DNA from: a virus
Virus record (IMG/VR): IMGVR_UViG_3300042387_001562
Coordinates: 1-27,043 of that record
Length of the DNA: 27,043 bases
Strand: one strand, 5' to 3'
Position 1 is the stretch's first letter. The number at the start of each line of letters is the position of its first letter. Both the position numbers and the translations under genes were made by a program. This document shows, one piece after another, positions 6,748 through 24,490 of this stretch. Below the pieces are notes generated by a model. That model made no database searches. It saw only the letters and a list, made by a program, of their open reading frames with translations, and was not told where the DNA came from.

Positions 6748-8078
6748 GAACTCTACAAGAACAATTTAATTTAATAAACGAAGGTAAAGGACACAAAGAT
6801 GTGTTTTTAAAATCTGCTCGTAGATTATTTCCGGAATATATTACTAACTTTGCTACATACAATGAAGCTGTAAAAATACTTAAACAAAAAAGTGTTTTAG
6901 TTGAAGCCGCGGGTGGTGTAGTAACACAACGTACTTTTGATCCCTTTCAAACTTTTAATCAATTTGTAAGCGAGGCATCAACCCAAGAAAACCCAATTAA
7001 AGCTCCTAAAGCTACAGGCGCTTACGACACCAAAGCAGTTAACACTAAATTATCTAAAGAAGTAGAAATTAATCAAAAAGAAACAGGATACGATAATACT
7101 AATAAGGATATTATAGATAATGTATATGGGCAGGCTTTTTTAGAAGGATACTATGCCGAAATGAAAGATCCTAAAAATGAAGATAAAAGTGTAGACCAAT
7201 TAAAAGAAATAGTTCGTAAAAACTTAGCTAAAAGCCCTACATACTATGCAGAAAACGCAGCGTTTGGTATTAAGGGTATTGGATACACCAAAGATGCTCC
7301 TGGCTTAGGAGAACCTAAAGCACCAAAAGGCAAATACAAGTCTAGTGGATACGGTGATTTAAAAGAATCATATGATTATGAAACCCAAAAGGATTTGAAA
7401 GCATTGGCCCAAGATAGTAATAAGTTAAAAGATTCTAATGAAGTAAAAAAAGCGGCTAAATTTATAGGAATGAATGCAGATGATGAAGATGAACTTGGTA
7501 GGTTAACCAAAGCATATGCTAAAAAACATGAAATTACTGATTCTGAAGCAATAACTCATATAATAGATCAAGCCTATACTATTTTCAAATCTAGATTTTC
7601 AGAAATGAATGAAGGTCTTAAAAAGGCCTTCAATAAAAAACTAAGAGAATCAGAAATAAATGCAAACCCATATAGTCTATACAAAAGTCACCCTAAATTT
7701 AAAGAAGCAGAACAAGCAATTGCTAAAGCCTTAAAAACAGCTACTAAACGGGAAGATGTTGAAAATATATTAAAAAATTATCGTGAAGCTGGGGCAGATG
7801 ATACTGCCTCTAGAGAAGCTATATTTGCTGTTTTCAATAAAAAACTAAATGAATCTAAACTTCGCTCATTAGTTCGCAATTTAATAAAAGAAGAATTAAA
7901 CGAAGGCTATGGTATGTCCTTAGAAGATGCTAAAGCTGAAGCTCAACGCATATCCCAAGAAGAAGGTGTAGTACAACACGTTGAAGAAACATCAGAAGGA
8001 TCTGGAGAGTACAGAATATCAGATTGGTACGATTCAGATTTAACTGTTGCTTCATACCAAAACGGAATGGAATTATAA
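6744..8078 (+). CDS. Prohead core-like modular protein with many L/I-x-E sites
   Basis: This 444-residue protein lies immediately upstream of the prohead protease and has no recognised catalytic motif. Its N-terminus, MRTLQEQFNLINEGKG, resembles T4 capsid-targeting leaders that end in [L/I]-x-E. Further such sites occur at INE 11-13, LVE 52-54, LKE 153-155, LRE 300-302, LNE 368-370, IKE 381-383 and LNE 385-387. The element FNKKLxES occurs twice (296-303 and 364-371). A basic-acidic helix KLRSLVRNLIKEEL (372-385) leads to a separate C-terminal segment (388-444) ending in ISDWYDSD and VASYQNG. The best guess is a core protein processed by the neighbouring protease. It overlaps the previous gene by 4 nt and ends 2 nt before the protease start. 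Confidence 0.75.
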   Translation: MRTLQEQFNLINEGKGHKDVFLKSARRLFPEYITNFATYNEAVKILKQKSVLVEAAGGVVTQRTFDPFQTFNQFVSEASTQENPIKAPKATGAYDTKAVNTKLSKEVEINQKETGYDNTNKDIIDNVYGQAFLEGYYAEMKDPKNEDKSVDQLKEIVRKNLAKSPTYYAENAAFGIKGIGYTKDAPGLGEPKAPKGKYKSSGYGDLKESYDYETQKDLKALAQDSNKLKDSNEVKKAAKFIGMNADDEDELGRLTKAYAKKHEITDSEAITHIIDQAYTIFKSRFSEMNEGLKKAFNKKLRESEINANPYSLYKSHPKFKEAEQAIAKALKTATKREDVENILKNYREAGADDTASREAIFAVFNKKLNESKLRSLVRNLIKEELNEGYGMSLEDAKAEAQRISQEEGVVQHVEETSEGSGEYRISDWYDSDLTVASYQNGMEL

Positions 8079-8080
8079 TC

Positions 8081-8683
8081 ATGAGACAAGTACTCATAGA
8101 AACAATCCCGTTTAGCATATCTCCTGTTCAATTAACAGAAGGTATGAGAGCTCCATCAGGTAATCCTATGGTAGAAGGGATATTAGCTACAGCCGAAATA
8201 AAAAACGGAAACGGCAGATACTATTCAAAGGATTTATGGGAACGTGAAATAGATAAATATCAAGAAATTGTTAAACAAAATAGAGCAACCGGTGAACTTG
8301 ATCACCCCGAATCTTCAATCATAAACCTAAAAAATGTATCCCACATCATCCGAGAATTATGGTGGAATGGAGATAAAGTATTAGGTAAAATAGAAATTCT
8401 CCCAACAACATCAGGTAACATCCTTAAAGCTTTAATCGACAACGGAGTTCAAGTTGGTGTTTCAAGTAGAGGAATGGGCTCGCTAAAACAAATGGGAGAA
8501 ACATTAGAAGTACAAGACGATTTTGAATTACTTTGTTGGGATTTCGTATCAACCCCATCCAACCCAGGATCATATATGCAATTAGTAAAAGAAGGTAAAG
8601 AAAATAACACCAACCCTTACTCTAAAGCAAACAGTATTCTTACAGATATTCTTTGCGCTAACGGAACTTGCCCTCTTTTTTAA
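8081..8683 (+). CDS. 21: Prohead core protease (T4 gp21-like, peptidase S77 type)
   Basis: A 200-residue serine protease that cleaves scaffold, core and capsid proteins during head maturation. TGELDHP carries the probable catalytic His75. GVSSRG at 126-131 carries the nucleophile, S128 or S129. IRELWWNGDKVLGKIEIL and WDFVSTPSNPGS match the herpes/T4 assemblin-type protease fold, with D154 in the latter. The frame stays open to an ATG at 8024, but that start would overlap the previous gene by 55 nt with an unlike basic/Cys leader. ATG 8081, 2 nt after the previous stop, is preferred. Two hairpins, the second a terminator, follow it, and the scaffold gene comes next. Confidence 0.93.
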   Translation: MRQVLIETIPFSISPVQLTEGMRAPSGNPMVEGILATAEIKNGNGRYYSKDLWEREIDKYQEIVKQNRATGELDHPESSIINLKNVSHIIRELWWNGDKVLGKIEILPTTSGNILKALIDNGVQVGVSSRGMGSLKQMGETLEVQDDFELLCWDFVSTPSNPGSYMQLVKEGKENNTNPYSKANSILTDILCANGTCPLF

Positions 8684-8699
8684 TACAACACGCACCCCC

Positions 8700-8718
8700 C
8701 TAAGGGTAGTCCCCTTAG
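8700..8718 (+). other. Hairpin after protease gene
   Basis: CTAAGGG (8700-8706) pairs with CCCTTAG (8712-8718) around a short loop. It has no T-run, so it is probably not a terminator itself. It sits just 5' of one and could protect the 3' end of the mRNA or act as a processing signal. Confidence 0.55.
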
Positions 8719-8721
8719 ACC

Positions 8722-8752
8722 AACCCTCCCCTAAAAAGGAGGGTTTCTTTTT
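8722..8752 (+). terminator. Rho-independent terminator after protease gene
   Basis: AACCCTCC (8722-8729) pairs with GGAGGGTT (8738-8745), followed by TCTTTTT. It closes the terminase-to-protease unit and separates it from the highly expressed scaffold and capsid genes. Confidence 0.85.
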
Positions 8753-8791
8753 GCGATTTTTATAAATTTTGATATATGTATCATTGATAAT

Positions 8792-8811
8792 ATACCATTT
8801 ATATATGGTAT
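8792..8811 (+). other. Hairpin in the scaffold gene leader
   Basis: ATACCAT (8792-8798) pairs perfectly with ATGGTAT (8805-8811) around a 6-nt loop. It lies in the 199-nt gap upstream of the scaffold gene. As DNA it could be an operator; as RNA it could stabilise the leader. A degenerate relative of the window's recurrent motif (ATATTTGTATAA, 8814-8825) follows. Confidence 0.5.
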
Positions 8812-8832
8812 CCATATTTGTATAATCCCTAT

Positions 8833-8854
8833 TACGATTCTATTAATAATCGTA
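8833..8854 (+). other. Second hairpin in the scaffold gene leader
   Basis: TACGATT (8833-8839) pairs with AATCGTA (8848-8854) around an 8-nt AT-rich loop. It lies about 20 nt before the Shine-Dalgarno-like GAGG of the scaffold gene. A 5' hairpin of this kind can stabilise an abundant mRNA; that role is inferred. Confidence 0.5.
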
Positions 8855-8873
8855 TTCCACAAACAAAAATTTT

Positions 8874-8877
8874 GAGG
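8874..8877 (+). promoter_or_regulatory. Shine-Dalgarno-like GAGG of the scaffold gene
   Basis: GAGG lies 5 nt before ATG 8883. It stands out because nearly all other starts in the window have only A/T-rich leaders. It supports the chosen start. Confidence 0.6.
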
Positions 8878-8882
8878 TAATT

Positions 8883-9962
8883 ATGGCAACAAACAGAGAT
8901 TTGCTAAAAGAAGCCATTGCCGATGCTAAAGCTGTTAAAGACGCAGCCATCGCCAATGCAAAAGTCGCTCTCGAAGAAGCCTTTACTCCATATCTAAAAG
9001 AAAAATTTGCAGCTAAATTAGCTGAAATTGAAGAAGAAGAAATGGAAGAAGGAATGGAGACTGAAGGTTATGAAAAAGATTCAATGGAAGAACGTTTAGG
9101 TACAATTAACGATCCAAGTGAAGAAGGTGTTGGAAACGCATTTAGTGCAGCCCCACACGGAAATCTTGAAGAAGAAGACGACACTATGGAAGAAGAATTA
9201 GATCTAGAAGCTCTTTTAAGAGAACTCGAAGAAGGTGATGAAGAAATGTATGAAGAGGAAATGACTGAAGCTAAAGACAAAGAAAAAATGGACGAAGCTG
9301 AGGATGAAATGGAAGACGAAATGGGAGAAGAAGAAGTTAGCCTTGAAGACATGACTGAAGACGAACTTAGAGAACTTATTGAAGATGTAATTGCCGGAAT
9401 GGTTGAAGCTGGTGAATTAGAAGCCGGTGAAGGCATGGAAGGTGAAGAAGGTGAAGAAGAAATGGAAAGTGAAGAAGAAGTTGACATCGAAGAATTAATG
9501 GCCGAAGTTAAAAAAGAAAAAATGAAATCAAAAGGCCGTGAAGAAATCGAAGAAGCTAAAAGAAAAACTAAAGAAGCTGAAATGAAGAAAGAAAAAGCTG
9601 AAAAAGAACTTAAAGAAGCTTACGATACTCTTGCTGAAATTCAAGCTAGTCTTCAAGAAGTAAAACTTTTAAACGCTAAACTTCTCTACACCAACAAAAT
9701 CTTCAGAGCTAAAAATTTGACCGAAAGTCAAAAAGTAAAAGTATTGGAATCATTTGACAAAGCTACAACTGTAAAAGAAACAAAACTTATTTATGAAACA
9801 TTAAGCCAAGGTTTAACCACTAAAAAGCCAGTTAATGAATCAGTAGTAAGAGGTTTAGCTTCTAAAGCTGTAGGATCAGTTGAAAATAAGAAACCAATCT
9901 TTGAAGTAGACAGCCAATTTGCGAGATGGCAAGTTCTCGCTGGAATTAAAACAAACAATTAA
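8883..9962 (+). CDS. 22: Prohead scaffold protein (T4 gp22-like)
   Basis: This 359-residue scaffold forms the inner core on which the capsid shell assembles and is then degraded by the protease. The N-terminus is helical and Ala/Lys-rich (MATNRDLLKEAIADAK). Residues about 48-215 are extremely rich in Glu, Asp and Met, and residues about 205-265 are a Lys/Glu coiled coil. The C-terminus (NKIFRAKNLTESQKVKVLES near residue 273) matches the conserved end of gp22-type scaffolds. Many [L/I]-x-E sites are available for cleavage. It lies directly before the capsid gene with a 14-nt gap. The Ser-rich antisense frame over the acidic part is a composition artefact. Confidence 0.9.
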   Translation: MATNRDLLKEAIADAKAVKDAAIANAKVALEEAFTPYLKEKFAAKLAEIEEEEMEEGMETEGYEKDSMEERLGTINDPSEEGVGNAFSAAPHGNLEEEDDTMEEELDLEALLRELEEGDEEMYEEEMTEAKDKEKMDEAEDEMEDEMGEEEVSLEDMTEDELRELIEDVIAGMVEAGELEAGEGMEGEEGEEEMESEEEVDIEELMAEVKKEKMKSKGREEIEEAKRKTKEAEMKKEKAEKELKEAYDTLAEIQASLQEVKLLNAKLLYTNKIFRAKNLTESQKVKVLESFDKATTVKETKLIYETLSQGLTTKKPVNESVVRGLASKAVGSVENKKPIFEVDSQFARWQVLAGIKTNN

Positions 9963-12713: not shown

Positions 12714-13436
12714 ATGACTTCCCACTCCCACGAAGATGAAATATTCCAAGAAAAACGTAAACCTAAAAACCCTATAAAATTTAAATTAGAGCTAAATCAG
12801 GAACAGAAAGAAGCCAAATCTAAAATATTAGAAAATACAGTTACATTATTAGCAGGTTCTGCTGGTTCAGGTAAAACACTTTTAGCGTGTCAAATAGCAC
12901 TAGAAAAGCTATTTATGAAAGAAGTTGAAAAAATAATCATAACACGCCCCACAGTATCAAAAGAAGAAATTGGGTTTTTACCTGGTGATTTACGCGAGAA
13001 AATGGACCCTTGGGTACAACCCATATACCAAAACATGTACGCACTGTATGACCGAGTAAAAATAGAAAAACACATACAGGAAGGCGATATCGAGATAGTA
13101 CCGGTTAGTTTTATGCGGGGTCGTACATTCTTAGATTCAATTGTTATAGTAGACGAAGCTCAAAACGTTACCCACGAACAAATGGAAATGATTGTAACCC
13201 GTTTAGGTTTACGTTCTAAGATGATAATTTGTGGTGATGATAACCAAGTAGACTTAAAAAATAAACGCGATTCTGGGTTTAGATTTTTATACACGGCTGC
13301 TAAAAAAATTAAAAACTTAGCCGCAATATCACTTAAAACAAACCACAGAAACCCAATAGTAGAAGATTTAATAGCATACTATGAAGACGCATACGAAAGC
13401 GGAATTAGTTTAACAAACAGCGGTTCGAAAAGATAA
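12714..13436 (+). CDS. phoH: PhoH-like P-loop ATPase
   Basis: A 240-residue PhoH-family protein. Walker A is GSAGSGKT at 48-55 and Walker B is VIVDEAQN at 144-151. The family motifs TRPTVSKEEIGFLPGD (78-92) and GDDNQVDL, and the C-terminal TNHR element, are also present. PhoH is a helicase-like ATPase linked to RNA metabolism; despite the name, a phosphate role in phages is unproven. It is common in marine phages. Here it lies inside the structural gene cluster, between a fibre gene and neck genes, rather than in a metabolism region. The first 20 residues are charged and poorly conserved in type, so a slightly later start is possible, but ATG 12714 fits the spacing. Confidence 0.93.
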   Translation: MTSHSHEDEIFQEKRKPKNPIKFKLELNQEQKEAKSKILENTVTLLAGSAGSGKTLLACQIALEKLFMKEVEKIIITRPTVSKEEIGFLPGDLREKMDPWVQPIYQNMYALYDRVKIEKHIQEGDIEIVPVSFMRGRTFLDSIVIVDEAQNVTHEQMEMIVTRLGLRSKMIICGDDNQVDLKNKRDSGFRFLYTAAKKIKNLAAISLKTNHRNPIVEDLIAYYEDAYESGISLTNSGSKR

Positions 13437-13455
13437 AAGAAACATTAGATTTGCC

Positions 13456-13465
13456 ATATTTATAA
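13456..13465 (+). promoter_or_regulatory. ATATTTATAA motif upstream of neck gene
   Basis: The 10-mer ends 10 nt before ATG 13476 in the 39-nt gap after phoH. It would start transcription of the neck and tail-completion genes if it is a promoter. Confidence 0.5.
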
Positions 13466-13475
13466 TAAAAATTAG

Positions 13476-14696
13476 ATGGCAAATATCCCAATTTGGCCCG
13501 GCACCTCATCATTTGCCCAGGTCTCAGCTTCATATTATAATACTCCTTCAACAGGTAGCTCACCTACTCCATTTGGTTTTTATGATAACGATCCCGATTT
13601 TAAAAATGATGCCAACAAAGTAGCAAACTTTTGCGCCCGAAGATTAGGTTATCCTATTGAAAATGTTGAATTACAAGATTTAAACTTTTGGACTGCATTC
13701 GAAGAAGCAACCACAGTTTATGGTAATGAATTATATGCCTACCAAGTTAGAGAAAATATGCTTAACTTGGAAGGCTTACCTATCACTACTCCTACACTTA
13801 ATAATACTCAAATTACCCCAAATATGGGTAATATTATCCGCATTTCAGAACAATACGGAACTGAAGCTGGATCGGGGGGTAATGTAAATTGGTACAGTGG
13901 TTCTGTAATTTTAACAGGAAGTGTTCAAGAATACGATTTAAATCAATGGGCAGTTCAAAATGGCATTAGTGCAAGTAATTTAGAAGTTAAAAGAGTATAT
14001 TATCAAGGAGTACCCGCTTCTGCAACTTATTATTATGGGGGAGGGATAGGATTAGGAATAGGTGGAGGAGGATTTATGGGAGCTTTAGGTGGGGCACCAG
14101 GATTTGCGGGGTATGGGTATAATTATCTTGTAACCCCCTTATCTTATAATGTTGGCGCTATTCAAGAAGTTGAATTAGGACAAGATATTTTACTTTCAGC
14201 TTATAGCTTTGAAATACACAATAATAAACTTAGAATATTCCCCGTACCTTTAGAAGCAGATACAGGTACACACTATTGGTTTCAATATGTTTTAAAAAAT
14301 GAACGTTTATCAGATTCGTTAGCTTCAGGCAGCGGAAATACAGGAGCAGGACTTATAACAAATGTATCTAATGTACCTTTTGCTAATCCTGTATATGCCC
14401 AAATAAATTCAATAGGTAGAAGTTGGATATTTGAATATACTTTATCTTTATCTAAAGAAATGCTAGGATATGTTAGAAATAAATATTCTCAAATTCCTAT
14501 CCCAGGGGCTGAAGTTACATTAAATGGGGACTCATTATTAACATCAGCAACTGATACTAAAAATGCTTTAATTGAAAGATTAAGGGCATATTTTGATGAA
14601 ACTTCTAGAAAAAGTATGCTTGAAAGGCGTAAAGATGAAGCAGACTTTTCTAAACAAGAGTTGAATAACGTACCCATGACAATTTATATAGGATAA
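13476..14696 (+). CDS. 13: Neck / head-completion protein (gp13-like)
   Basis: A 406-residue protein resembling the gp13-type neck proteins of T4-like marine phages. The N-terminal helical domain contains FYDNDPDF, NFCARRLGYPIENVELQDL and FWTAFEEATTVYGNEL. A Gly/Tyr-rich low-complexity insert (YYYGGGIGLGIGGGGF, about residues 185-215) follows, then a C-terminal helical region with LSLSKEMLGYVRNKYSQIP. In T4, gp13 and gp14 seal the filled head and form the tail docking site. The gp14-like gene follows after 2 nt, which supports the call. The Gly insert makes it longer than T4 gp13 (309 aa). Confidence 0.75.
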   Translation: MANIPIWPGTSSFAQVSASYYNTPSTGSSPTPFGFYDNDPDFKNDANKVANFCARRLGYPIENVELQDLNFWTAFEEATTVYGNELYAYQVRENMLNLEGLPITTPTLNNTQITPNMGNIIRISEQYGTEAGSGGNVNWYSGSVILTGSVQEYDLNQWAVQNGISASNLEVKRVYYQGVPASATYYYGGGIGLGIGGGGFMGALGGAPGFAGYGYNYLVTPLSYNVGAIQEVELGQDILLSAYSFEIHNNKLRIFPVPLEADTGTHYWFQYVLKNERLSDSLASGSGNTGAGLITNVSNVPFANPVYAQINSIGRSWIFEYTLSLSKEMLGYVRNKYSQIPIPGAEVTLNGDSLLTSATDTKNALIERLRAYFDETSRKSMLERRKDEADFSKQELNNVPMTIYIG

Positions 14697-14698
14697 TT

Positions 14699-15250
14699 AT
14701 GGCTCTTTTTGGACAAGCACGCGACATTTCAATGTTTAGACACATTAACCGCGAGTTAATGGGGAACATTATATCCCAACAATGCGCATTTTATAAATTA
14801 AGATTAGATCAAACTAATTTTAATATGTATGGTGAAGCTGCAGAGCAAAAATATTATGATGGTCCTGTATTATTATATTGTTTAATAGACTTACCTGATC
14901 AAACCCAACCCACAGACGACATGGGTGTAACTTTTGATTGGCAGCCTGAATTTAGATTTTTAAGAGACGATTTATTAAATAAACTTCAAGATTTTAATCA
15001 GGATACAATATACGGTGCTAATCTAGTACCTCAAATAGGTGATATTATATTATATGAAACTGCTTATTATGAAGTACACACTACTAACGCTGCTCAATAT
15101 TTTGTAGGTAAAGATCCAGATTATCCAAATTCTCCCCAACCACAAGGATTTAACCCCGGTTTAGGCGAATTTGGTTATAATGTATCTATAATTTGTAAAA
15201 CCCACTATGTACCTGCTGATAAAGTTGGTATAACCTTTGAAAGAATGTAA
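14699..15250 (+). CDS. 14: Neck protein (gp14-like)
   Basis: A 183-residue partner of the gp13-like protein. The N-terminus FGQARDISMFRHINRELMGN and the later YGEAAEQKYYDGP, then WQPEFRFLRDDLL and PQIGDIILYETAYYEV, fit the gp14 type found in T4-like phages of marine bacteria. The protein should be part of the connector between portal and tail. It is shorter than T4 gp14 (256 aa). Tight spacing on both sides (2 nt each) places it in one operon with the gp13- and gp15-like genes. Confidence 0.72.
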   Translation: MALFGQARDISMFRHINRELMGNIISQQCAFYKLRLDQTNFNMYGEAAEQKYYDGPVLLYCLIDLPDQTQPTDDMGVTFDWQPEFRFLRDDLLNKLQDFNQDTIYGANLVPQIGDIILYETAYYEVHTTNAAQYFVGKDPDYPNSPQPQGFNPGLGEFGYNVSIICKTHYVPADKVGITFERM

Positions 15251-15252
15251 TT

Positions 15253-16359
15253 ATGGCTGAAAGCAGAAACCCATCACCAAGAAAACCAACTCCTAAAACT
15301 CAAGCTGAACTTAGCAATCAGTTATCAGGGGCTAGTAATTCTTTATTAGGAGATCCAAATTTAGCTAACCCTAATTTTAATGGCCCCAATAGATCATTAC
15401 AAAATAGTTGGAAAGATGATACTGTAAAACCATTTACAGTTACTATCCAAGATATAGATGAAACCATAATGTATTATTTTCAAAATGTTATCAAACCATT
15501 TGTAATACAAAACGGAAATAGAATAGAAGTACCCATAATATATGGGTCCCCTGAACGTTGGAAATCAGTTCAACGAGATGGATACTATAAAGATAAAAAT
15601 GGAGCTATAATGGCCCCCCTTATTATGTTTAAACGAGATACAATTGAACGTAATAGAAGTTTGGGCAATAAATTAGACGCTAATTATCCTAATTTGTACG
15701 GGGTAATGAAAAAAAAGTATGATACTAGAAATTTTTATTCGAATTTTAATGTATTAACCAATAGAGTTCCTGAAGAACAATTCTACGCCGTTACTATACC
15801 TGACTACGTTAATCTAACATATAGTTGCGTAGTATACACATATTATGTTGAGCAGCTAAACAAAATAGTAGAAGCAATTAACTATGCTTCAGACACATAT
15901 TGGGGTGATCCTCAACGCTATAAATTTAAGGCTGCTATTGATTCCTTTACTACCGTAACTGAATTACCAACGGGGGCTGAAAGGATAGTAAAAAGCACAT
16001 TTAACATTAAAATGTACGGATATGTAATCCCAAATACATTACAAAATAATGTTTCTTCATTACAAAAATATAGAAATAAAGCTAAACTTATATTTGCATT
16101 AGAAACCACAGACGATCCTATAGTATTTGATCCAAATGTTCCTGTATTAACAGATGATTCTGGAAGACCTAATGCCCAAAACGCAAGAAGTTTGGCAGCA
16201 GATAAATATAATCTTAAACAAGCTCAACTATTTAATGAACCCCCCTCAGTAAATTTTTCTCCTAATTTAGAATATGAAGCTTTATTAAATGAAATAACCG
16301 AATTAAAAAATCAATTAGATGCCGCAAATGCAACTATTCAATCTCTTCAAAACCCCTAA
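15253..16359 (+). CDS. 15: Tail sheath stabiliser / tail completion protein (gp15-like)
   Basis: A 368-residue protein whose core aligns by eye with T4 gp15. Shared landmarks are an early FTVTIQDIDETIMYYF strand-helix, VPIIYGSPERWKSV (T4: VPITYASKEHF), YSCVVYTYYVEQLNKIVEAI (T4: YELSIFTRYEDDMFQIVEQI) and FNIKMYGYVIP (T4: FEVNGWMYPP). In T4 a gp15 hexamer caps the tail tube and sheath and binds the neck. A disordered N-terminal extension (residues about 1-55, Pro/Asn-rich) and a C-terminal coiled coil (YEALLNEITELKNQLDAANA) make it longer than T4 gp15 (272 aa). It completes a 13-14-15 block. Confidence 0.75.
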   Translation: MAESRNPSPRKPTPKTQAELSNQLSGASNSLLGDPNLANPNFNGPNRSLQNSWKDDTVKPFTVTIQDIDETIMYYFQNVIKPFVIQNGNRIEVPIIYGSPERWKSVQRDGYYKDKNGAIMAPLIMFKRDTIERNRSLGNKLDANYPNLYGVMKKKYDTRNFYSNFNVLTNRVPEEQFYAVTIPDYVNLTYSCVVYTYYVEQLNKIVEAINYASDTYWGDPQRYKFKAAIDSFTTVTELPTGAERIVKSTFNIKMYGYVIPNTLQNNVSSLQKYRNKAKLIFALETTDDPIVFDPNVPVLTDDSGRPNAQNARSLAADKYNLKQAQLFNEPPSVNFSPNLEYEALLNEITELKNQLDAANATIQSLQNP

Positions 16360-16383
16360 TATTAATAAATTGGAGTTGTACTA

Positions 16384-16439
16384 TTTTAAACTTTAATTAA
16401 CTATTACTAAAAAGAACAAAATAATTTGGAAGTTTAAAA
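16384..16439 (+). repeat. Short inverted repeat in the intergenic gap
   Basis: TTTTAAACTT (16384-16393) and AAGTTTAAAA (16430-16439) are perfect 10-nt inverted copies 36 nt apart in the 109-nt gap after the gp15-like gene. The arms are AT-rich, so chance is possible. A TATAAATA box (16454-16461), identical to the T4 late promoter core, follows, 7 nt before the next ATG. Confidence 0.35.
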
Positions 16440-16453
16440 ATAATTTATTATAT

Positions 16454-16461
16454 TATAAATA
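16454..16461 (+). promoter_or_regulatory. T4-type late promoter box TATAAATA
   Basis: An exact match to the T4 late promoter core lies 7 nt before ATG 16469, preceding the small coiled-coil gene and the glycan cassette. AT-rich sequence gives such matches by chance, so this is tentative. Confidence 0.35.
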
Positions 16462-16468
16462 AAAATTT

Positions 16469-16717
16469 ATGGAAAGATTAACACAACAAGAACTAGAAAA
16501 ACTTCAAGAACTTCAACAAAGAGGCCAAACACTAATTAATGAATTAGGGCAAATTGAGATTGCAAAATTATCACTCCAAAATAGACGTGAAAACTCAGAA
16601 CAACTTTTATCTCAATTACAGATTGACGAACAAGTTTATACTAAAGAATTAACAAATAAATACGGTCGAGTTTCAATTGACCCCCAAACTGGTGAAATTA
16701 CTAAGATAGAAGATTAA
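16469..16717 (+). CDS. Small coiled-coil protein of unknown function
   Basis: This 82-residue protein is a near-continuous heptad-like helix (LTQQELEKLQELQQRGQTL, then LSLQNRRENSEQLLSQL). It ends in a short beta-type segment (YGRVSIDPQTGEI). No membrane segment is present. It lies between the tail completion gene and the first cassette gene, with 14 nt to the latter. Small coiled-coil proteins of this build accompany tail genes in other marine myoviruses, but I assign no function. Confidence 0.65.
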   Translation: MERLTQQELEKLQELQQRGQTLINELGQIEIAKLSLQNRRENSEQLLSQLQIDEQVYTKELTNKYGRVSIDPQTGEITKIED

Positions 16718-16731
16718 TTTTTTAAAAGGTT

Positions 16732-17721
16732 ATGATTGATAATTTCGTAAAATTAGTTTTAGAAAATGGGGGAACAATAAAACCTTTATTAATCCCCTCA
16801 GAAAATACAGGTGGGACAGGTTTATGTAATCCTTCAATTTACATCGATAATGGTAAACCCATTATGAATCTTCGCCACGTGGATTATACTTTATATCATT
16901 GTGAGGGTGAACAACGATTTCAAACTAGATGGGGGAATGAATATAGACCATTTTGTTATTTACATCCTGAAGATGATTGTGTTTTAAGAACAACAAATTA
17001 TTTTTGTGAATTAGATCCTATAACTCTTGAAATCCAATCATACCAAAAAGTAGATACCTCCAAACTAGACAGTCCCCCAGTTTGGGAATTTATAGGATTA
17101 GAAGATGCACGATTAGTTAGGTGGGATGGTAAACTTTATATGTGTGGGGTTAGACGAGATACTAAACCTAATGGAGAGGGTAGAATGGAACTTTCAGAAA
17201 TAGTAGATGGTAAAGAAATATCTCGTTTTAGAATTAAACCTCCAAAAGATCCAAATTCATACTGCGAAAAAAATTGGATGCCTATCCTAGATATGCCCTA
17301 TCATTTTGTAAAATGGGCAAACCCCACAGAAATAGTAAAGGTTTACCCTGAAGAAGGACGTTCTGAACAAGTTTATTTAGTAGAATCTATCAACCAAAAT
17401 GTGCGTAGAGATATTAGAGGGGGTTCACAAGTTATATCTTTGGACAATTATAGGATAGCAGTAACACATGAAGTAGATTTATGGAATAGTGAAAATTCTT
17501 CCAAAGATGGTAGATATTACCATAGATTTATAATTTGGGATAAAGATTGGAACATTATTAAAACAAGTAAAGAGTTTCATTTTATGAGTGCTTGGGTAGA
17601 GTTTTGTTGTGGAATGGTAATATATGAAAATAAAATTCTTATCACATTCGCCTTTCAGGATAATGCAGCATTTATTCTTCAAATACCAGTTCAATTTTTT
17701 AAATCATTTTTAGAGATATGA
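16732..17721 (+). CDS. Five-bladed beta-propeller glycoside hydrolase/phosphorylase-like protein (GH130/GH43 superfamily type)
   Basis: A 329-residue protein with the motif order seen in GH130-like propellers: NPSIY (33-37), GLEDARLV (122-129), EKNWMP (179-184), RGGSQ (229-233), HEVD (246-249) and a closing strand LITFAFQDNAAF. Known relatives cleave or phosphorolyse mannosides, or are fused to glycosyltransferases. The acidic residues E124/D125 (in GLEDAR) and the KNW element are typical substrate-site positions. The substrate cannot be told. There is no signal peptide, so it acts in the cytoplasm or on the virion. It overlaps the TPR-FkbM gene by 4 nt and opens a cassette of glycan-related genes. 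A catalytically dead sugar-binding role is possible. Confidence 0.65.
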   Translation: MIDNFVKLVLENGGTIKPLLIPSENTGGTGLCNPSIYIDNGKPIMNLRHVDYTLYHCEGEQRFQTRWGNEYRPFCYLHPEDDCVLRTTNYFCELDPITLEIQSYQKVDTSKLDSPPVWEFIGLEDARLVRWDGKLYMCGVRRDTKPNGEGRMELSEIVDGKEISRFRIKPPKDPNSYCEKNWMPILDMPYHFVKWANPTEIVKVYPEEGRSEQVYLVESINQNVRRDIRGGSQVISLDNYRIAVTHEVDLWNSENSSKDGRYYHRFIIWDKDWNIIKTSKEFHFMSAWVEFCCGMVIYENKILITFAFQDNAAFILQIPVQFFKSFLEI

Positions 17722-18974
17722 CATTAGAATATCATTTAGGGGAATTTATAAAAGACCCACTTAACCCAGCTAAAAATTTCAATTTAGGGCTTTTATATGA
17801 TATTAATGGCCATACGGCATCTGCAATTTCTTTTTATTTAAGATGTGCCGAATATAGTTACGATAATGATTTAACGTATGAATCTTTATTAAGATTAGCT
17901 ACGTGTTTAGGAAAACAAAGTAGAAGAATTAATAGTGAACGAGGAGTATACTTACATGCTATATCTTTAATTCCTGATAGGCCTGAAGCCTATTTTCTTT
18001 TAAGTCAACATTATGAGAGATTAAAAGAATGGTTAGAATGTTATACTATGGCTAATTTAGCAGAGTTTTATAAAAACAATTCCCAACCTACTTATACAGA
18101 TATTAGCTATCCTGGAGAATATGGCCCAACATTTCAAAAAGCAATTTCATCTTGGTGGGTTGGGCAATTTGAAGAGTCTAAAAAACTATTTTATAAATTA
18201 GCAGATGAATATGGTGAAGATATGTTAGATGATTATAAAAATTCAGTAATAAATAATATAAATGCTTTAGGTTTATATAATCATCCCCATTTAAAATATA
18301 CCCCAACCCAACAGAATAACCTAAAATACCAATTTAAAGGAGTTGAAAATATACAAGAAAACTACTCCCAAGCCTACCAGGATATATTTGTTTTAACTAT
18401 GTTAAATGGTAAAAAAAATGGAACATATCTTGAAATAGGAGCAGGAGATGCTTTTTATGGTAGTAACACCGCTCTTTTAGATTTACAATTTGGGTGGGGT
18501 GGTATATCTATTGAATATAATAGTAATTATATTGAAAATTTTAAACAAAATAGAACTAGTATTTTAATAAATGAAGATGCAACACAAATAAATTATACTA
18601 ATTTACTTAAAACAAATAATTTTCCTACAAATATTGATTATTTACAATTAGATTGTGAACCTAGTGAAATAACTTATAATATTCTTCTCAAAATACCCTT
18701 TGAAGAATATAAGTTTGCAATTATAACATACGAGCACGATTATTATACAGACCCAAATCGAAATTCATGTATTTCTTGCACATATCGTGAAAAATCACGA
18801 GAATTTTTAATATCTAAGGGATATGAACTTATAGTTAATAATGTGGCGCCTGATAAATTGTGTTCTTTTGAGGATTGGTGGGTTCATCCTGATTTAGTAG
18901 ATAAAGAAATTATAGATAAAATAAAATTTATTAGCGATAAAACTAAAAAATCAACAACTTGTATATTTAAGTGA
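17718..18974 (+). CDS. TPR domain fused to FkbM-type methyltransferase
   Basis: A 418-residue fusion. Residues about 1-200 are helical tetratricopeptide-like repeats (NFNLGLLYDINGHTASAISF at 20-39; AYFLLSQHYERLKEW at 91-105). Residues about 215-418 form an FkbM-like methyltransferase with SYSQAYQD-type entry (QAYQDIFVL), SAM motif YLEIGAGDAFYGSNT (237-251), IEYN, DYLQLDCEP (307-314) and terminal FEDWWVHPD. FkbM enzymes O-methylate sugars or other small substrates. The TPR part may hold the glycan or protein partner. It is coupled to the propeller gene by ATGA and followed within 1 nt by a second FkbM gene. Low-GC codon choice is marked. Confidence 0.78.
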   Translation: MTLEYHLGEFIKDPLNPAKNFNLGLLYDINGHTASAISFYLRCAEYSYDNDLTYESLLRLATCLGKQSRRINSERGVYLHAISLIPDRPEAYFLLSQHYERLKEWLECYTMANLAEFYKNNSQPTYTDISYPGEYGPTFQKAISSWWVGQFEESKKLFYKLADEYGEDMLDDYKNSVINNINALGLYNHPHLKYTPTQQNNLKYQFKGVENIQENYSQAYQDIFVLTMLNGKKNGTYLEIGAGDAFYGSNTALLDLQFGWGGISIEYNSNYIENFKQNRTSILINEDATQINYTNLLKTNNFPTNIDYLQLDCEPSEITYNILLKIPFEEYKFAIITYEHDYYTDPNRNSCISCTYREKSREFLISKGYELIVNNVAPDKLCSFEDWWVHPDLVDKEIIDKIKFISDKTKKSTTCIFK

Positions 18975-18975
18975 T

Positions 18976-19584
18976 ATGAAAGAAAAAATAGCTTTTGACA
19001 TTGGGGCATGCACTGGTGAAACTCTAAATAAATTTAAAGATTACGATATCATATATGCATTTGAACCCAACCCATTCAGTTTTAATATCTTAGAAAAAAA
19101 ATATAATAACATTAATGTAAAGCTATTTAATATTGCCATATCGGACGAAAATGGTTATAAAAAATTTAATTGTCACGACCATTATCAATATTCATCATTT
19201 TTAAAAATTTTAAATACCGGGGAATTTGCCGAAAGATGCCATGATATAGATACTGGGTATAATAATATAGTTGGTATTATTGATGTTGAAACTGTAAGGC
19301 TAGATACTTTTATGTCTAATAATTTTATACCCCATATTGATTACTTAAAAATAGATACACAAGGATATGATTTAAATGTAGTTAAGTCATTGGGAGACAT
19401 GATAAATAAAGTAAAAATTATTGAATTAGAAACTCAAATTAAACCTCTTTATAAAAATTCTCCCACAAAAGAAGAGATTATAAATTATATGACATTTAAT
19501 AAATTTAAATTAGCATCATCTTTCCCTAATTCACCTTTAGTAGAGGGGTATGAAGAAATATTAATATTTGAGAATATAAACTAA
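18976..19584 (+). CDS. FkbM family methyltransferase
   Basis: A 202-residue SAM-dependent methyltransferase with motif FDIGACTGETL (7-17), the ribose-binding acidic E30 in YAFEPNP, and DYLKIDTQGYDLNVVKSLG (122-140), the characteristic FkbM signature. The C-terminus (LVEGYEEILIFEN) is also typical. The probable reaction is O-methylation of a sugar or related hydroxyl in the cytoplasm. It is a stand-alone domain, unlike the TPR-fused enzyme immediately upstream, so the phage encodes two different FkbM enzymes side by side. Acceptor unknown. Confidence 0.88.
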   Translation: MKEKIAFDIGACTGETLNKFKDYDIIYAFEPNPFSFNILEKKYNNINVKLFNIAISDENGYKKFNCHDHYQYSSFLKILNTGEFAERCHDIDTGYNNIVGIIDVETVRLDTFMSNNFIPHIDYLKIDTQGYDLNVVKSLGDMINKVKIIELETQIKPLYKNSPTKEEIINYMTFNKFKLASSFPNSPLVEGYEEILIFENIN

Positions 19585-19590
19585 ATTAAT

Positions 19591-20385
19591 ATGATACCAG
19601 TTATAGGAATACCAATATTAAATGGAACTCATTGGCTACAACGCTTAATATTTAGCATAGATTATCCGGTTGATAATGTTGTTATATTTAATAACGGAAA
19701 TAAAGAAATTATAGAAGAATTAGATAATTTAACTAAAATAAATCACCCTTATATAAATAATATAACAATTTGCCATTTACCTTCTAATTTGGGTGTATCT
19801 GCTGCTTGGAATTTAACTATAAAATCTTATAATACATCTTCTTATTGGGTTATATCAAATCACGATATTGCTTTTACGCCCGGATTATTAAAAGAAATGT
19901 ATGAAAAAGCCCAAAATGAAGAAATTGGGATGGTACATGGGAGTGGGGGGGATTTTAATGATGGCTCATATGATTTGTTTTTGATAAAAGATTGGATAAT
20001 TCAAAAATTAGGATTATTTGATGAAAATCTTTCTCCAGCTTATTGCGAGGATGCGGATTATATTATGAAAATTACAAGATATAATTGGGATAATCCTCAT
20101 AATCAAATTAAAAAAATATCATCTTTAAATACCCCTTATTATCATGGTATTGGGTTATCTACCGATAAAAATTATTATCAACATGGTAGTCAAACTAAAA
20201 AGCAAAATGATGAATTGACCAAAAAATTAGATGAAATAAATATAATTAACTTTCAATATATGAATATGAAGTGGGGTGAAGGTTGGAGAATGACAAATCC
20301 ACAAATGTATCCTATGGGTATAGAAAATATGCCCATAACTTATACTTCATATGATTTAGAATTCATCAGAACCAAAAATATATAA
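19591..20385 (+). CDS. Family 2-like glycosyltransferase (GT-A fold)
   Basis: A 264-residue protein with a Rossmann-like start (IPVIGIPILNG, VVIFNNGN), then LPSNLGVSAAWNLTI, which matches the NxGxxxAxN element of GT2 rhamnosyl-type transferases. The metal/nucleotide site is written NHD (90-92) instead of DxD. The acceptor-side motif is LSPAYCEDADYIMK (147-160), with acids E153, D154 and D156. It should transfer a sugar from a nucleotide sugar to a glycan or protein. It lacks a membrane anchor. It lies 6 nt after the FkbM gene. The replaced DxD residue leaves donor specificity open. Confidence 0.82.
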   Translation: MIPVIGIPILNGTHWLQRLIFSIDYPVDNVVIFNNGNKEIIEELDNLTKINHPYINNITICHLPSNLGVSAAWNLTIKSYNTSSYWVISNHDIAFTPGLLKEMYEKAQNEEIGMVHGSGGDFNDGSYDLFLIKDWIIQKLGLFDENLSPAYCEDADYIMKITRYNWDNPHNQIKKISSLNTPYYHGIGLSTDKNYYQHGSQTKKQNDELTKKLDEINIINFQYMNMKWGEGWRMTNPQMYPMGIENMPITYTSYDLEFIRTKNI

Positions 20386-20409
20386 AAAACAATTTAAACT
20401 TTATAATAT

Positions 20410-21135
20410 ATGAGTGAACTAGCAACAGTAAAACATTCCGGAAATATAGGAGATATTTTATACAGTCTTCCAGTAGTAAAACATATACATGATATTACTA
20501 ATCAAAAAGTAAATTTTTATTTAAATCCTATTGATGATAGAATGTCTATGGAGTCTAGTAATTTACTTAAACCTTTATTAGAACACCAATATTATATAAA
20601 TGAAGTAAATATATATAATGATCAATATATAAATTATGATCTAGATACTTTTAGAAATTATCTATTTTTTTCTAATTTAGGTACAATGCACTTAGCTGCT
20701 TTTAATTTTGATTTTGATCTTAAAAATAAACCTTCTATATTTTTAGATAATAAATTAAAATTTAGTATACCTACATGCGATATTATAATTAATAGAACAC
20801 AAAGATATAATAATGACAACTTTCCCTGGGAATATGTTCTTAATGAGCAATACAAATATTATTCTAAAGGTTTTGTAGGATTATTATACGAATTCAATTT
20901 TTTTAGAGAAAAATACAATATTGAAAATTTAATATACATTCCTATTAAAAATTATCTAGAATTAGCTTGGCTTATAAAAGAATCTAAAATTTTTATAGGA
21001 AATTGTAGTTCCCCATATGCTTTAGCTGAAACTTTAAAACACAATACTATTCAAGAAACTTGTATAGAATATCCTTCTTGTTTATACTCTAGACCAAATG
21101 CCCAATATTTTTTACAACATTTTTTTACTATTTAA
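20410..21135 (+). CDS. GT9 (heptosyltransferase)-like GT-B protein, short form
   Basis: A 241-residue protein that looks like a compact heptosyltransferase relative. KHSGNIGDILYSLPVVKHI (8-26) matches the N-terminal GDxLxxLPxV signature of GT9 enzymes. LAWLIKESKIFIGNCSSPYA (185-204) matches the C-terminal sugar-nucleotide site, in which the usual GNDTG is replaced by GNCSS. It is about 100 residues shorter than typical heptosyltransferases, and the middle is Asn/Tyr/Ile-rich. It may be an active reduced enzyme or a diverged binding protein. It sits between the GT2 and oxygenase genes, with 24 nt and 3 nt gaps. Confidence 0.68.
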   Translation: MSELATVKHSGNIGDILYSLPVVKHIHDITNQKVNFYLNPIDDRMSMESSNLLKPLLEHQYYINEVNIYNDQYINYDLDTFRNYLFFSNLGTMHLAAFNFDFDLKNKPSIFLDNKLKFSIPTCDIIINRTQRYNNDNFPWEYVLNEQYKYYSKGFVGLLYEFNFFREKYNIENLIYIPIKNYLELAWLIKESKIFIGNCSSPYALAETLKHNTIQETCIEYPSCLYSRPNAQYFLQHFFTI

Positions 21136-21138
21136 AAT

Positions 21139-21813
21139 ATGAACCCATATTACATAGACCCAACCCCAGACTCAGATTGGGGCATTATAGAAACTAATAA
21201 GTTTGGCTTAATGAAAAACCAACGCAAATCTTTTTTTGTAGTTGATAATTTTTATGAAGATCCGTATGCTGTAAGAGAATTTGCCCTTCAACAAACCTAC
21301 TTTCCTGGTGAAGGGGCAGTAGGTTCAAGAACCCGTAAACAATTTCTTTTTGAAGGCTTAAAAGAAAAATTTGAAGAAATTATAGGCATAAAAATAGCAG
21401 AACATACCAAAAATAAACAGGGTTGGAAAGATGGGGGAATAAATGGGCGTTTCCAAACTTGCACTGCCGGTACCCCTTTAGTATATCACTGCGATTCCCA
21501 ACAATGGGCTGGTATGATATATCTTACACCTGACGCCCCCCCTCAATGCGGAACAAGTTTTTTTAGACATAAAGAAACTAAAATAAAACACAATTCTGAA
21601 ATAAATTGGGAAAATGGAGAATGTAATAAAGTATTTAACCAGCACACATTTTTAGACGGAACTCCTTATGAATTAATAGATAAAATAGGTAATGTATTTA
21701 ATAGACTAGTTATATTTAATGGCGGGTTAATACATTCTGCCTCTGAATATTTTGGTTGGGATATTCCATCTTCTCGTTTATTTCATATGTTTTTCTTTGA
21801 TGGAGAGATATAA
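21139..21813 (+). CDS. 2-oxoglutarate/Fe(II) oxygenase-like protein (DUF6445 type)
   Basis: A 224-residue protein with a recognisable HxD...H...R arrangement: VYHCDSQQWAGMIYLTPDAP places H117 and D119, LVIFNGGLIHSASEYFG places H199, and SSRLFHMFFF places R213 for 2-oxoglutarate. GTSFFRHKET follows the first strand pair, as in DUF6445-like proteins of marine phages and bacteria. The N-terminus contains FFVVDNFYEDPYAVREFAL, also typical. It probably hydroxylates or otherwise oxidises a substrate in the cytoplasm; the substrate is unknown. As the last gene of the glycan cassette it could act on a sugar, lipid or protein side chain. The sheath gene follows 48 nt later. Confidence 0.75.
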   Translation: MNPYYIDPTPDSDWGIIETNKFGLMKNQRKSFFVVDNFYEDPYAVREFALQQTYFPGEGAVGSRTRKQFLFEGLKEKFEEIIGIKIAEHTKNKQGWKDGGINGRFQTCTAGTPLVYHCDSQQWAGMIYLTPDAPPQCGTSFFRHKETKIKHNSEINWENGECNKVFNQHTFLDGTPYELIDKIGNVFNRLVIFNGGLIHSASEYFGWDIPSSRLFHMFFFDGEI

Positions 21814-21861: not shown

Positions 21862-23565
21862 ATGGCAGAAACTTTAATATCACCCGGCGTATTAGCAAGA
21901 GAAAACGATAATTCTTTTGTATCCCAACAACCCGTAACTGTTGGAGCCGCTATCATAGGACCCACAGTTAAAGGTCCAGTTCAAATACCTACAGTAGTAA
22001 CTACATATTCAGATTATGTAAATAAATTTGGTACTACTTTTTTAAGTGGGGGTCAAGAATATAGTTATTTAACTTCTATTTCGGCTTATAATTATTTCCA
22101 AAATGGTGGTACCTCATTATTAGTAGCTAGAGTAGCTTCAGGATCCTTTACTCCCGCTTCAGCTTCAATCTTAGCTAGTGGTAGTACTATAGCCTTTACT
22201 TTAAAAACTATTTCTGAAGGTACTATAATGAACAATTCAGGTTCAGAAGGTACTAATGGTATTTTATCAAGTGGTTCAGCTGATAATGTAAGATGGCAAA
22301 TTGCAAACCGCGATACGGGTTCAGGAACATTTAGTTTATTAATTAGACAGGGTAATGATACTACCACAGAACCTATAGTATTAGAAACCTGGACTAATCT
22401 TTCATTAGACCCAACACAACCCAATTATATAGCAAGAGTAATTGGTGACAGTTACCAATCATATAATTCAAGTGAAAATTATATCCAAGTAAACGGTACT
22501 TTCCCTAACCAATCAAGATACGTTTATATATCTGCGGTTAATAACCCAACTCCTTATTATTTTGATAATAATGGAACTGCACAATCTCTATATACAAGCT
22601 CTATTCCACTAAACGCTAGCGGCACTTTCAACAACGCCACAGGTAATTTATTTTATGGCGGGGGCGCTAAATATTATAGTGCAATATCAGGTACAGTCAA
22701 TATTCAGGGTATTAGTTCCTCAGATTACAATAATATGATTAATTTAATGGCTAACCAAGACGATTATAGATTTAATTCTATTACAATTCCTGGTTTAACT
22801 ATAGCCGATAATTCAACCCAAGTAACCAACTTAGCAAATAATGTTCAATCTCGTGGTGACGCTATTTTAGTAGCAGATACTCGCCCTTATGGAGCTCAAT
22901 TATCTCAAACTATAACATCAGCTACTTCAATTAACAATTCATATGTTACTACCTACTGGCCTTGGTTACAAACCATTGACCCAGGAACAGGACAATTAGT
23001 TTGGGTACCGGCTTCAACAATGATCCCGGGTGTATATGCATTTAACGATAGTGTATCCGAACCTTGGTTTGCACCTGCAGGTATTAATAGAGGAGGTTTA
23101 AGTACAGTAGTTAGAGCAGAAAGAAAATTATCACAAACAAACCGCAATGATCTTTATGTAGGTAATGTTAATCCTATTGCTACTTTCCCTGGAACTGGAG
23201 TTGTAGTATACGGACAAAAAACACTACAGAAAAAAGCATCTGCTCTTGATCGTGTAAACGTTCGTAGATTATTAATTGCTCTTAAGTCTTACATTTCTCA
23301 AGTAGCAAACAATTTAGTATTTGAACAAAACACAATTGCAACAAGAAATGCATTCTTAAGCCAAGTAAACCCATATCTAGAATCAGTACAACAACGCCAA
23401 GGATTATATGCATTTAGAGTAATTATGGATGATTCAAATAACACACCTGATGTAATCGATAGAAATCAGATGATTGGTCAAATTTATCTTCAACCAACCA
23501 AAACTGCTGAATTTATTTACCTTGATTTCAATATTACTCCAACGGGCGCAACTTTCCCTGCGTAA
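21862..23565 (+). CDS. 18: Contractile tail sheath protein (T4 gp18-like)
   Basis: A 567-residue sheath subunit. The N-terminal domain has the usual entry LISPGVLARENDNSF, VTVGAAIIGPTVKGP and VVTTYSDYVNKFG. The variable middle (about residues 100-270) is Ser/Thr/Asn-rich and surface exposed. The C-terminal core is well conserved: GVVVYGQKTLQKKASALDRV, NVRRLLIALKSYI, NTIATRNAFLSQVNPYLESV and GQIYLQPTKTAEFIYLDF. On contraction it drives the tube through the host envelope. It directly follows the glycan cassette and precedes the tube gene. It is shorter than T4 gp18 (659 aa). Confidence 0.96.
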   Translation: MAETLISPGVLARENDNSFVSQQPVTVGAAIIGPTVKGPVQIPTVVTTYSDYVNKFGTTFLSGGQEYSYLTSISAYNYFQNGGTSLLVARVASGSFTPASASILASGSTIAFTLKTISEGTIMNNSGSEGTNGILSSGSADNVRWQIANRDTGSGTFSLLIRQGNDTTTEPIVLETWTNLSLDPTQPNYIARVIGDSYQSYNSSENYIQVNGTFPNQSRYVYISAVNNPTPYYFDNNGTAQSLYTSSIPLNASGTFNNATGNLFYGGGAKYYSAISGTVNIQGISSSDYNNMINLMANQDDYRFNSITIPGLTIADNSTQVTNLANNVQSRGDAILVADTRPYGAQLSQTITSATSINNSYVTTYWPWLQTIDPGTGQLVWVPASTMIPGVYAFNDSVSEPWFAPAGINRGGLSTVVRAERKLSQTNRNDLYVGNVNPIATFPGTGVVVYGQKTLQKKASALDRVNVRRLLIALKSYISQVANNLVFEQNTIATRNAFLSQVNPYLESVQQRQGLYAFRVIMDDSNNTPDVIDRNQMIGQIYLQPTKTAEFIYLDFNITPTGATFPA

Positions 23566-24214: not shown

Positions 24215-24490
24215 ATGACAACATTTTATTTTGTATTAGGTATGGTTACAGTCTTAGTAATTGCTGAGGTTGTAGCTGCATTTTTTGTAATTAAAATAAT
24301 TAATTCAATAAAATCAAAAACACAACATTTAGAACGTTCTCTTGAAGACGAAACAGGAAATCTACACCAACGGATTGATAACACTGAAAGACATATTGAT
24401 CATGAAGTTCAAGAGATTTACAGGCAACTTGATTCTCGATTAGATAAGTTAGAAAACAAATTAACACCAAAACAAGTTATAAAAGGATAA
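24215..24490 (+). CDS. Small membrane-anchored coiled-coil protein
   Basis: A 91-residue protein with one N-terminal transmembrane helix (about residues 4-27: FVLGMVTVLVIAEVVAAFFV). A charged helical segment follows (HLERSLEDETGNLHQRI ... REL-type heptads such as YRQLDSRLDKLENKL), predicted as a coiled coil on the cytoplasmic or periplasmic face. No family is recognised. It stands alone between a terminator and the gp26-like gene and is bracketed by a long inverted repeat, unlike any neighbour. Possible roles are lysis timing, superinfection exclusion or tail assembly at the membrane; none is supported beyond topology. There is no Shine-Dalgarno sequence. Confidence 0.7.
   Translation: MTTFYFVLGMVTVLVIAEVVAAFFVIKIINSIKSKTQHLERSLEDETGNLHQRIDNTERHIDHEVQEIYRQLDSRLDKLENKLTPKQVIKG

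Follow-up and report, generated by a model that had tools for sequence, protein, structure and literature searches.

A glycan-related gene cassette with an exchangeable interior beside the tail sheath gene of a T4-like phage

Results

A compact block of six glycan-related genes lies directly before the tail sheath gene in the 27,043-base viral contig analysed here (the window; IMG/VR record IMGVR_UViG_3300042387_001562), within a T4-like structural cluster that includes genes for terminase, portal, protease, major head protein, head-tail adaptor, sheath, tube and baseplate hub. The six open reading frames (ORFs), all on the + strand, encode a GH130-fold enzyme of the five-bladed propeller family (gene 1, 16732–17721), a TPR domain fused to an FkbM-type methyltransferase (gene 2, 17718–18974), a second FkbM methyltransferase (gene 3, 18976–19584), a GT2 glycosyltransferase (gene 4, 19591–20385), a weakly assigned GT9-like protein (gene 5, 20410–21135) and a 2-oxoglutarate (2OG)-Fe(II) oxygenase (gene 6, 21139–21813). 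An initial annotation of this DNA had placed six tightly packed ORFs at these positions; all are present, with spacings of −4, 1, 6, 24 and 3 nucleotides (nt) between successive genes. The left border is formed by a gene for an 82-residue protein (16469–16717, + strand) and the right border by the sheath gene (21862–23565, + strand; PHROG E 2e-69), which had likewise been placed immediately downstream. The label 'gp15-like' given to the gene upstream of the cassette reflected its position only and was not confirmed, as neither the gene nor its homologues match any family. The phages closest by sheath protein among those that are named (53% identity) infect Flavobacterium, which makes a Bacteroidota host likely. 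The array is more than a chance assembly, since all six genes are shared by a near-identical phage (L001) and further phages show the gene order again. No membrane segment was found in any of the six proteins (maximum 19-residue hydropathy 0.66–1.44), and the interior genes have a G+C fraction of 0.23–0.28, lowest in gene 5 (0.227), compared with 0.33–0.35 for the GH130 and oxygenase genes.

The recurrent element of this locus is the GH130 gene followed by the TPR gene. Of the distinct loci, 36 were sampled on GH130 alone, and a TPR gene lies directly downstream in 31 of these; loci fetched with the TPR-FkbM query were excluded from this figure because they are biased towards the pair. Overall, the TPR gene directly follows GH130 in 80 of 92 distinct loci, and the two genes mostly overlap by 8 or 4 nt. 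The window order GH130 > TPR(-FkbM) > GT2 > 2OG was found in 14 loci fetched with the oxygenase alone, several of them near-identical. TPR and 2OG domains occur in one polypeptide in 21/92 loci, nearly always with FkbM between them and reaching up to 1071 residues, which argues against the TPR protein and the oxygenase being independent passengers, and relative L087 encodes a GT17-2OG fusion. The exact six-gene set was found only in the window phage and L001, so that the six genes are not the single unit that the initial annotation had implied. Comparison of sequences instead indicates a core of GH130 and TPR(-FkbM), which GT2 and 2OG often follow as recurrent accessories, together with a second FkbM gene and a GT9-like gene that are local additions. 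The cassette is real, functionally linked and modular, and the six-gene set is one strain's version of it.

The GH130 protein is largely restricted to phages, with at least 599 related stretches in IMG/VR and five matches in 84,980 prokaryote genomes. A cellular origin was considered and rejected; the five matches are contigs of 3–18 kb from metagenome-assembled genomes that carry the GH130-TPR pair, one of them with a sheath gene, and are probably phage contigs for this reason. Two named phages, Synechococcus phages DSL-LC02 and S-SCSM2R, have the pair, which adjoins tail-fibre and collagen-like genes in DSL-LC02 and occurs with a TPR-FkbM-2OG fusion in S-SCSM2R, where the module lies at 164888–167720. 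Searches of the literature found no report of GH130 together with FkbM in phages, and none of DUF6445 in phages.

Structural comparison bears out the annotation of gene 1 as a GH130-like propeller. A GH130 profile gave only a chance match among PDB sequences, and the family was then resolved by a fold search, in which the AlphaFold model (pLDDT 87.7, pTM 0.89) matched the mannoside phosphorylases RaMP1 (5ay9; Z 24.1, 277 aligned residues, 3.1 Å) and 9gph (Z 23.9). GH43 enzymes and the GDP-mannose-dependent mannosyltransferases (MPT) of Leishmania lie below these at Z ∼18. The window protein itself does not match PF04041, and a scan of DNA from three relatives with this family gave no match; 10 of 50 relatives do match it (best E 9e-5). 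Fifty columns are invariant across 50 GH130 sequences, including the E-D-x-R motif (G122-x-E124-D125-x-R127), whose Asp we take to be the general acid by analogy with the GH130 family rather than from residue-level superposition. Retention of these columns suggests that the protein is probably an active enzyme. Its fold makes it a predicted member of the GH130/GT108 group, which covers phosphorylases, synthases, mannosyltransferases and hydrolases. The nearest matches in the BFVD library of viral structures include similar GH130-like propellers in proteins of Pithovirus, Solivirus, Satyrvirus and Indivirus; some of these giant-virus proteins are long and annotated as glycosyl or LicD-type enzymes.

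Gene 6 is assigned as an oxygenase from its fold and conserved residues. The protein matches Pfam DUF6445 (E 5e-13), the iron triad and arginine (H117-x-D119...H199...R213) are invariant in 24 oxygenase sequences, and the model matches 2OG oxygenases at Z ∼13–14, the top matches being OGFOD1 (Z 13.7), protein hydroxylases of the PHD/P4H type (PHD2, Z ∼13) and small-molecule oxygenases. A 2OG profile found no match among PDB sequences. Some database labels for this family are likely to be misannotations: the 'FkbM methyltransferase' WJZ48258 of DSL-LC02 (L082:15118–15711) is a 2OG oxygenase homologue (49%), the 'CcmH/NrfG' protein of S-SCSM2R (L083:12971–14836) is the TPR-FkbM-2OG protein, and PHROG 1644, named 'minor coat protein', includes the gene 6 family.

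Between these two genes the assignments vary in strength. Gene 2 contains the annotated TPR, with an FkbM domain that is matched weakly and under the cut-off (14.5 bits); a TPR profile matched engineered TPRs and OGT in the PDB, which we read as generic TPR likeness. The calls for gene 3 (72.7 bits to FkbM PF05050, cut-off 22.7; Pfam E 5e-20, NCBIfam E 2e-19) and gene 4 (36.9 bits to GT2 PF00535, cut-off 23.3; Pfam E 4e-9) both hold, gene 4 also matching a PHROG galactosyl transferase family (E 9e-24) and having syntenic copies. Gene 5 matches nothing in Pfam (including PF01075), NCBIfam, PHROG or the PDB, and the GT9-like label proved weak. It depends on motifs presumed to be those of the GT9 family, and on a motif-level likeness (E 0.21) to the GT9-containing protein at the same site in relative L014; L014 and L012 both carry Pfam-level GT9 domains there. 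A scan of viral contigs and hidden Markov model searches returned homologues of gene 5 from the same phage only, making it an orphan. Taken together, the genes belong to enzyme classes that build, methylate and oxidize glycans, as had been proposed, with recognizable catalytic motifs kept; trimming by the GH130 protein is unproven, as its fold is also that of phosphorylases, synthases and mannosyltransferases.

Comparison with relatives gathered by the sheath anchor revealed that the site is a place of exchange. In many of them the site is empty and the 82-residue gene stands directly before the sheath gene, while others hold different glycan enzymes. Flanking tail DNA is ∼96–98% identical among the compared phages, whereas the segment that begins at the TPR gene and reaches the oxygenase gene is swapped with recurring breakpoints, defining an exchangeable interior (17700–21140, + strand) that has no DNA match in L087 and L004 and is matched by no more than short, weak pieces of L005 and L003. 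The L087 DNA is 98.4% identical to the window over 13125–16361 and 84.7% over 16412–17687 (mostly GH130), does not match from 17688 to 21146, and is 97% identical from the oxygenase onward. The breakpoints lie at 17699 and 21143 in L004 and at 17699 and 21783 in L005, and in L003 the match resumes at 21785. Phage L002 retains gene 2 (98.9%) and GT2 (85%) without genes 3 and 5, and its match resumes at 21138 at 96%. The oxygenase is 91–96% identical in relatives with a different interior. The alternative cargo comprises TPR followed by GT17-2OG in L087; TPR with a weak Methyltransf_24 match, then GT17-FkbM-2OG, in L004; TPR, then GT17-GT2/GT7C-GT25-Methyltransf_24, in L005; GT25-FkbM and TPR-FkbM in L003; and a double Methyltransf_24 in L002.

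The cassette is probably transcribed late, together with the tail genes. The motif TATTTATAA occurs in eight copies on the + strand of the window, seven of which sit 12–36 nt before a structural-cluster gene (3403, 5316, 11745, 13457, 23582, 24522 and 25583) although intergenic DNA makes up only ∼3% of the sequence. In relatives, such late-promoter-like motifs precede the tube gene in 72/76 and the sheath gene in 46/76 cases, as against 1.3% of coding windows. The nearest late-promoter-like motif upstream of the cassette, TATAAATA (16454–16461, + strand; putative promoter), stands 15 nt 5′ of the 82-residue gene, and none lies between the cassette genes or right before the sheath gene of the window. 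Since the nearest motif precedes the 82-residue gene and none is inside, the cassette is probably read from a late unit that starts before 16469. The late expression suggested by the initial annotation would fit this place in the structural operon, the cassette having no late-promoter-like motif of its own.

The GH130 gene is associated with fibre genes. Its neighbours at positions −1 to −3 are led by collagen (16/92) and the S74 chaperone (13/92), followed by 2OG and laminin-G (7/92), and PHROG tail-fibre families rank first among its upstream neighbours. Tryptophan halogenase (2/92) and 2OG-FeII_Oxy_3 (8/92) are also seen among the genes upstream of GH130. Collagen-like ORFs occupy 41/286 slots at −1 to −4 of GH130 compared with 5/365 at +1 to +4 (odds ratio 12, p 8e-11), and several loci fetched with the oxygenase have a collagen-like ORF just upstream. 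Pfam collagen is found in 33/49 GH130-positive contigs versus 6/26 GH130-negative sheath contigs (p 5e-4), and in 20/29 versus 6/23 when contigs are size-matched (p 0.005); the E limit was 1e-10 for GH130-positive contigs and 1e-5 for controls, all control positives also passing 1e-10. The collagen repeats of these phages are of the GTQ/GIQ/GSQ/GTT type; Thr, Ser and Gln abound in them, whereas Lys and Pro are scarce.

Discussion

Our results suggest that the cassette represents, in local form, a module for glycan modification that is widespread among phages, in which a GH130-fold sugar enzyme is coupled by gene overlap to a TPR protein that carries or adjoins variable catalytic domains (FkbM and other methyltransferases, GT2/GT17/GT25, radical SAM, 2OG oxygenase). 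The reading that we favour, tentatively and at somewhat less than an even chance, is that these soluble enzymes are expressed late and assemble a variable, methylated and oxidized glycan whose carrier is a virion protein, most probably a fibre. The site of action would be the cytoplasm and the target a tail fibre or adhesin that has just been synthesized (in many relatives a collagen-like one), with the TPR domain holding the enzymes to their substrate. Sugars would be added by GT2 and perhaps by the GT9-like protein, the GH130 enzyme would make or remodel a beta-mannosidic or similar link, the FkbM enzymes would O-methylate, and the 2OG enzyme would hydroxylate either the sugar or the residue to which it is attached; glycosylation by GT2, O-methylation by FkbM and oxidation by 2OG make up the simplest scheme. 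Swapping the interior between near-identical phages would then alter the glycan, and the benefit may be masking of the particle, altered adsorption or stabilization of the fibre. Modification of a virion protein is favoured because the enzymes are soluble, the TPR protein may serve as a scaffold, the 2OG fold resembles that of protein hydroxylases and the neighbours are fibre genes. A more specific form, in which the phage hydroxylates, glycosylates and O-methylates collagen-like tail fibres by means of a TPR scaffold and a phage-restricted GH130-fold enzyme, with the interior swapped to switch the glycan, would be the counterpart in a bacterial virus of collagen modification, but is rather unlikely; Thr O-glycosylation of the collagen repeats is conceivable.

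Several observations weigh against modification of a virion fibre. Within the sheath-matched lineage the collagen association falls to 9/16 versus 6/26 (p 0.047), and all of the collagen counts, uncorrected for shared descent, come from sequences that are not independent. One third of the GH130 contigs have no collagen gene, though contigs are incomplete. The 27-kb window contains no collagen-like ORF; a close relative with a longer tail region, L004, has one of 1245 residues at ∼20–23.4 kb of its contig, beyond the window's end point, and a collagen-like target is thus seen only in a relative because the window stops before the fibre genes. The classical route of lysyl hydroxylation does not fit, since the phage repeats nearly lack Lys. 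Finally, comparable glycosyltransferase-rich clusters in pelagimyophages and cyanophages are interpreted as acting on host surface polysaccharide (PMC7029224, PMC7824862).

This last point also supports the strongest alternative, that late in infection the enzymes act on polysaccharide of the host surface (O-antigen, capsule or exopolysaccharide) and remodel it, which would keep out superinfecting phages or prevent progeny from sticking to debris; we consider this doubtful but a serious rival. The exchange of the interior resembles the turnover of O-antigen loci. Host loci for surface sugars commonly include members of the FkbM, GT2, GT9, GT17 and GT25 families. However, there is no membrane protein or flippase among the six proteins, and no sugar-nucleotide synthesis family among the listed GH130 neighbours; moreover, the TPR, 2OG and radical SAM/SPASM partners suit protein substrates, and the module adjoins fibre genes in a late structural operon, when a change of the surface helps the phage least. 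The initial annotation had left the choice between virion proteins and host surface sugars open, and the association with tail-fibre genes tips it tentatively towards the virion.

It is quite unlikely that the site is merely a mobile cargo position with unrelated passenger genes and no joint pathway. The place between the 82-residue gene and the sheath gene is empty in many relatives and holds other cargo elsewhere, and the second FkbM and GT9-like genes are local, as expected of such a position; however, unless the genes function jointly, it is difficult to account for the constant order and overlap of the GH130 and TPR genes or for the repeated TPR/FkbM/2OG fusions. Examination of relatives, with independent passengers in mind as the outcome that would speak against a common pathway, found conserved order and gene fusions instead. 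A pathway for a small molecule or free oligosaccharide (secondary metabolite), as for some cyanophage clusters, is improbable: it has been proposed by Iyer et al. for clusters with halogenase, 2OG and methyltransferase genes (PMC7824862), and the tryptophan halogenase genes upstream of GH130 would suit it, but no carbamoyl transferase, peptide synthetase or exporter was recognized in the window and the association is with fibre genes. We know of no DNA role for FkbM or GH130. Hypermodification of DNA, in which the 2OG enzyme hydroxylates a base that glycosyltransferases then glycosylate to shield the phage genome, is highly improbable, for although DNA-modifying phage glycosyltransferases are known and one glycosyltransferase of DSL-LC02 has been read as such (PMC10611076), the best structural matches of the 2OG enzyme are protein hydroxylases and small-molecule oxygenases, no base-modification genes were recognized in the window and the context is a tail operon.

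Glycan clusters in phage tail regions are already known, and it is the GH130-TPR variant that is apparently undescribed. The host recognition cluster of pelagimyophages and cyanomyophages is likewise a hypervariable island in a T4-like structural region, where genes for glycosyltransferases and radical SAM proteins accompany those for tail fibres, but it lies between VrlC and gp14 rather than directly before the sheath gene; in the accessible part of that account, GH130, TPR-FkbM and DUF6445 are not named and the sugar genes are read as related to lipopolysaccharide (LPS) (PMC7029224). The LPS/capsule clusters of P-SSM2-type cyanophages share glycosyltransferases, O-methyltransferases, 2OG oxygenases and polymorphism between related phages, but have epimerase/dehydratases, sugar kinases and nucleotidyltransferases, none of which is among the six cassette genes (PMC7824862). 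O-antigen conversion (gtr-like) clusters have a membrane flippase and a membrane-anchored glycosyltransferase, and neither is among the six proteins. We know of no GH130-TPR-2OG module in mycobacteriophage virion glycosylation. Bacterial viruses can have glycosylated virion proteins, as reported for the capsid and tail tube of mycobacteriophages (Freeman 2023, cited in PMC12619734).

Viruses of eukaryotes offer precedents for virus-encoded multidomain enzymes, joining a glycosyltransferase to a methyltransferase or a hydroxylase, that modify virus proteins (PMC9614988). Mimivirus L230 combines a glycosyltransferase and a hydroxylase in one polypeptide that acts on viral collagen, and is like the GT17-2OG protein of L087 in this respect, mimivirus too having collagen-like proteins; however, L230 acts on lysine, which the phage collagen repeats nearly lack, its glycosyltransferase and oxygenase families differ, and it has no TPR or GH130 partner (PMC9614988). 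PBCV-1 A064R is a multidomain glycosyltransferase and sugar O-methyltransferase for virion glycans, but belongs to a eukaryotic virus, and a GH130, TPR or 2OG partner is not named for it (PMC9614988).

When glycan genes occur in phage tail regions, the usual assumption is that they change the host surface, and the GH130-TPR module offers a concrete test of the alternative, virion glycosylation. It is suited to this purpose by being frequent in phage sequences from the environment, nearly missing from cellular genomes and tied to fibre genes, and it also occurs in a Synechococcus phage that has been sequenced and whose host strain is named. If virion glycosylation is correct, phages would vary their sugar coat by cassette swap while keeping their tail proteins constant, with consequences for adsorption, host range and immune recognition.

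Other features of the structural region were also observed. A PhoH-like ATPase gene and a thymidylate-kinase-like gene (12714–13436 and 315–845, respectively) lie inside the structural cluster of the window. Between the tube and hub genes (24215–24490) is a gene for a 91-residue protein with an N-terminal hydrophobic segment (hydropathy 2.64), which few relatives have. In L014 a 491-residue ORF (7515–8990) lies on the opposite (−) strand between the sheath and tube genes. The sheath proteins of L015–L030 and L130 are 640–995 residues long with a variable insert after approximately residue 100, whereas the window sheath has 567 residues.

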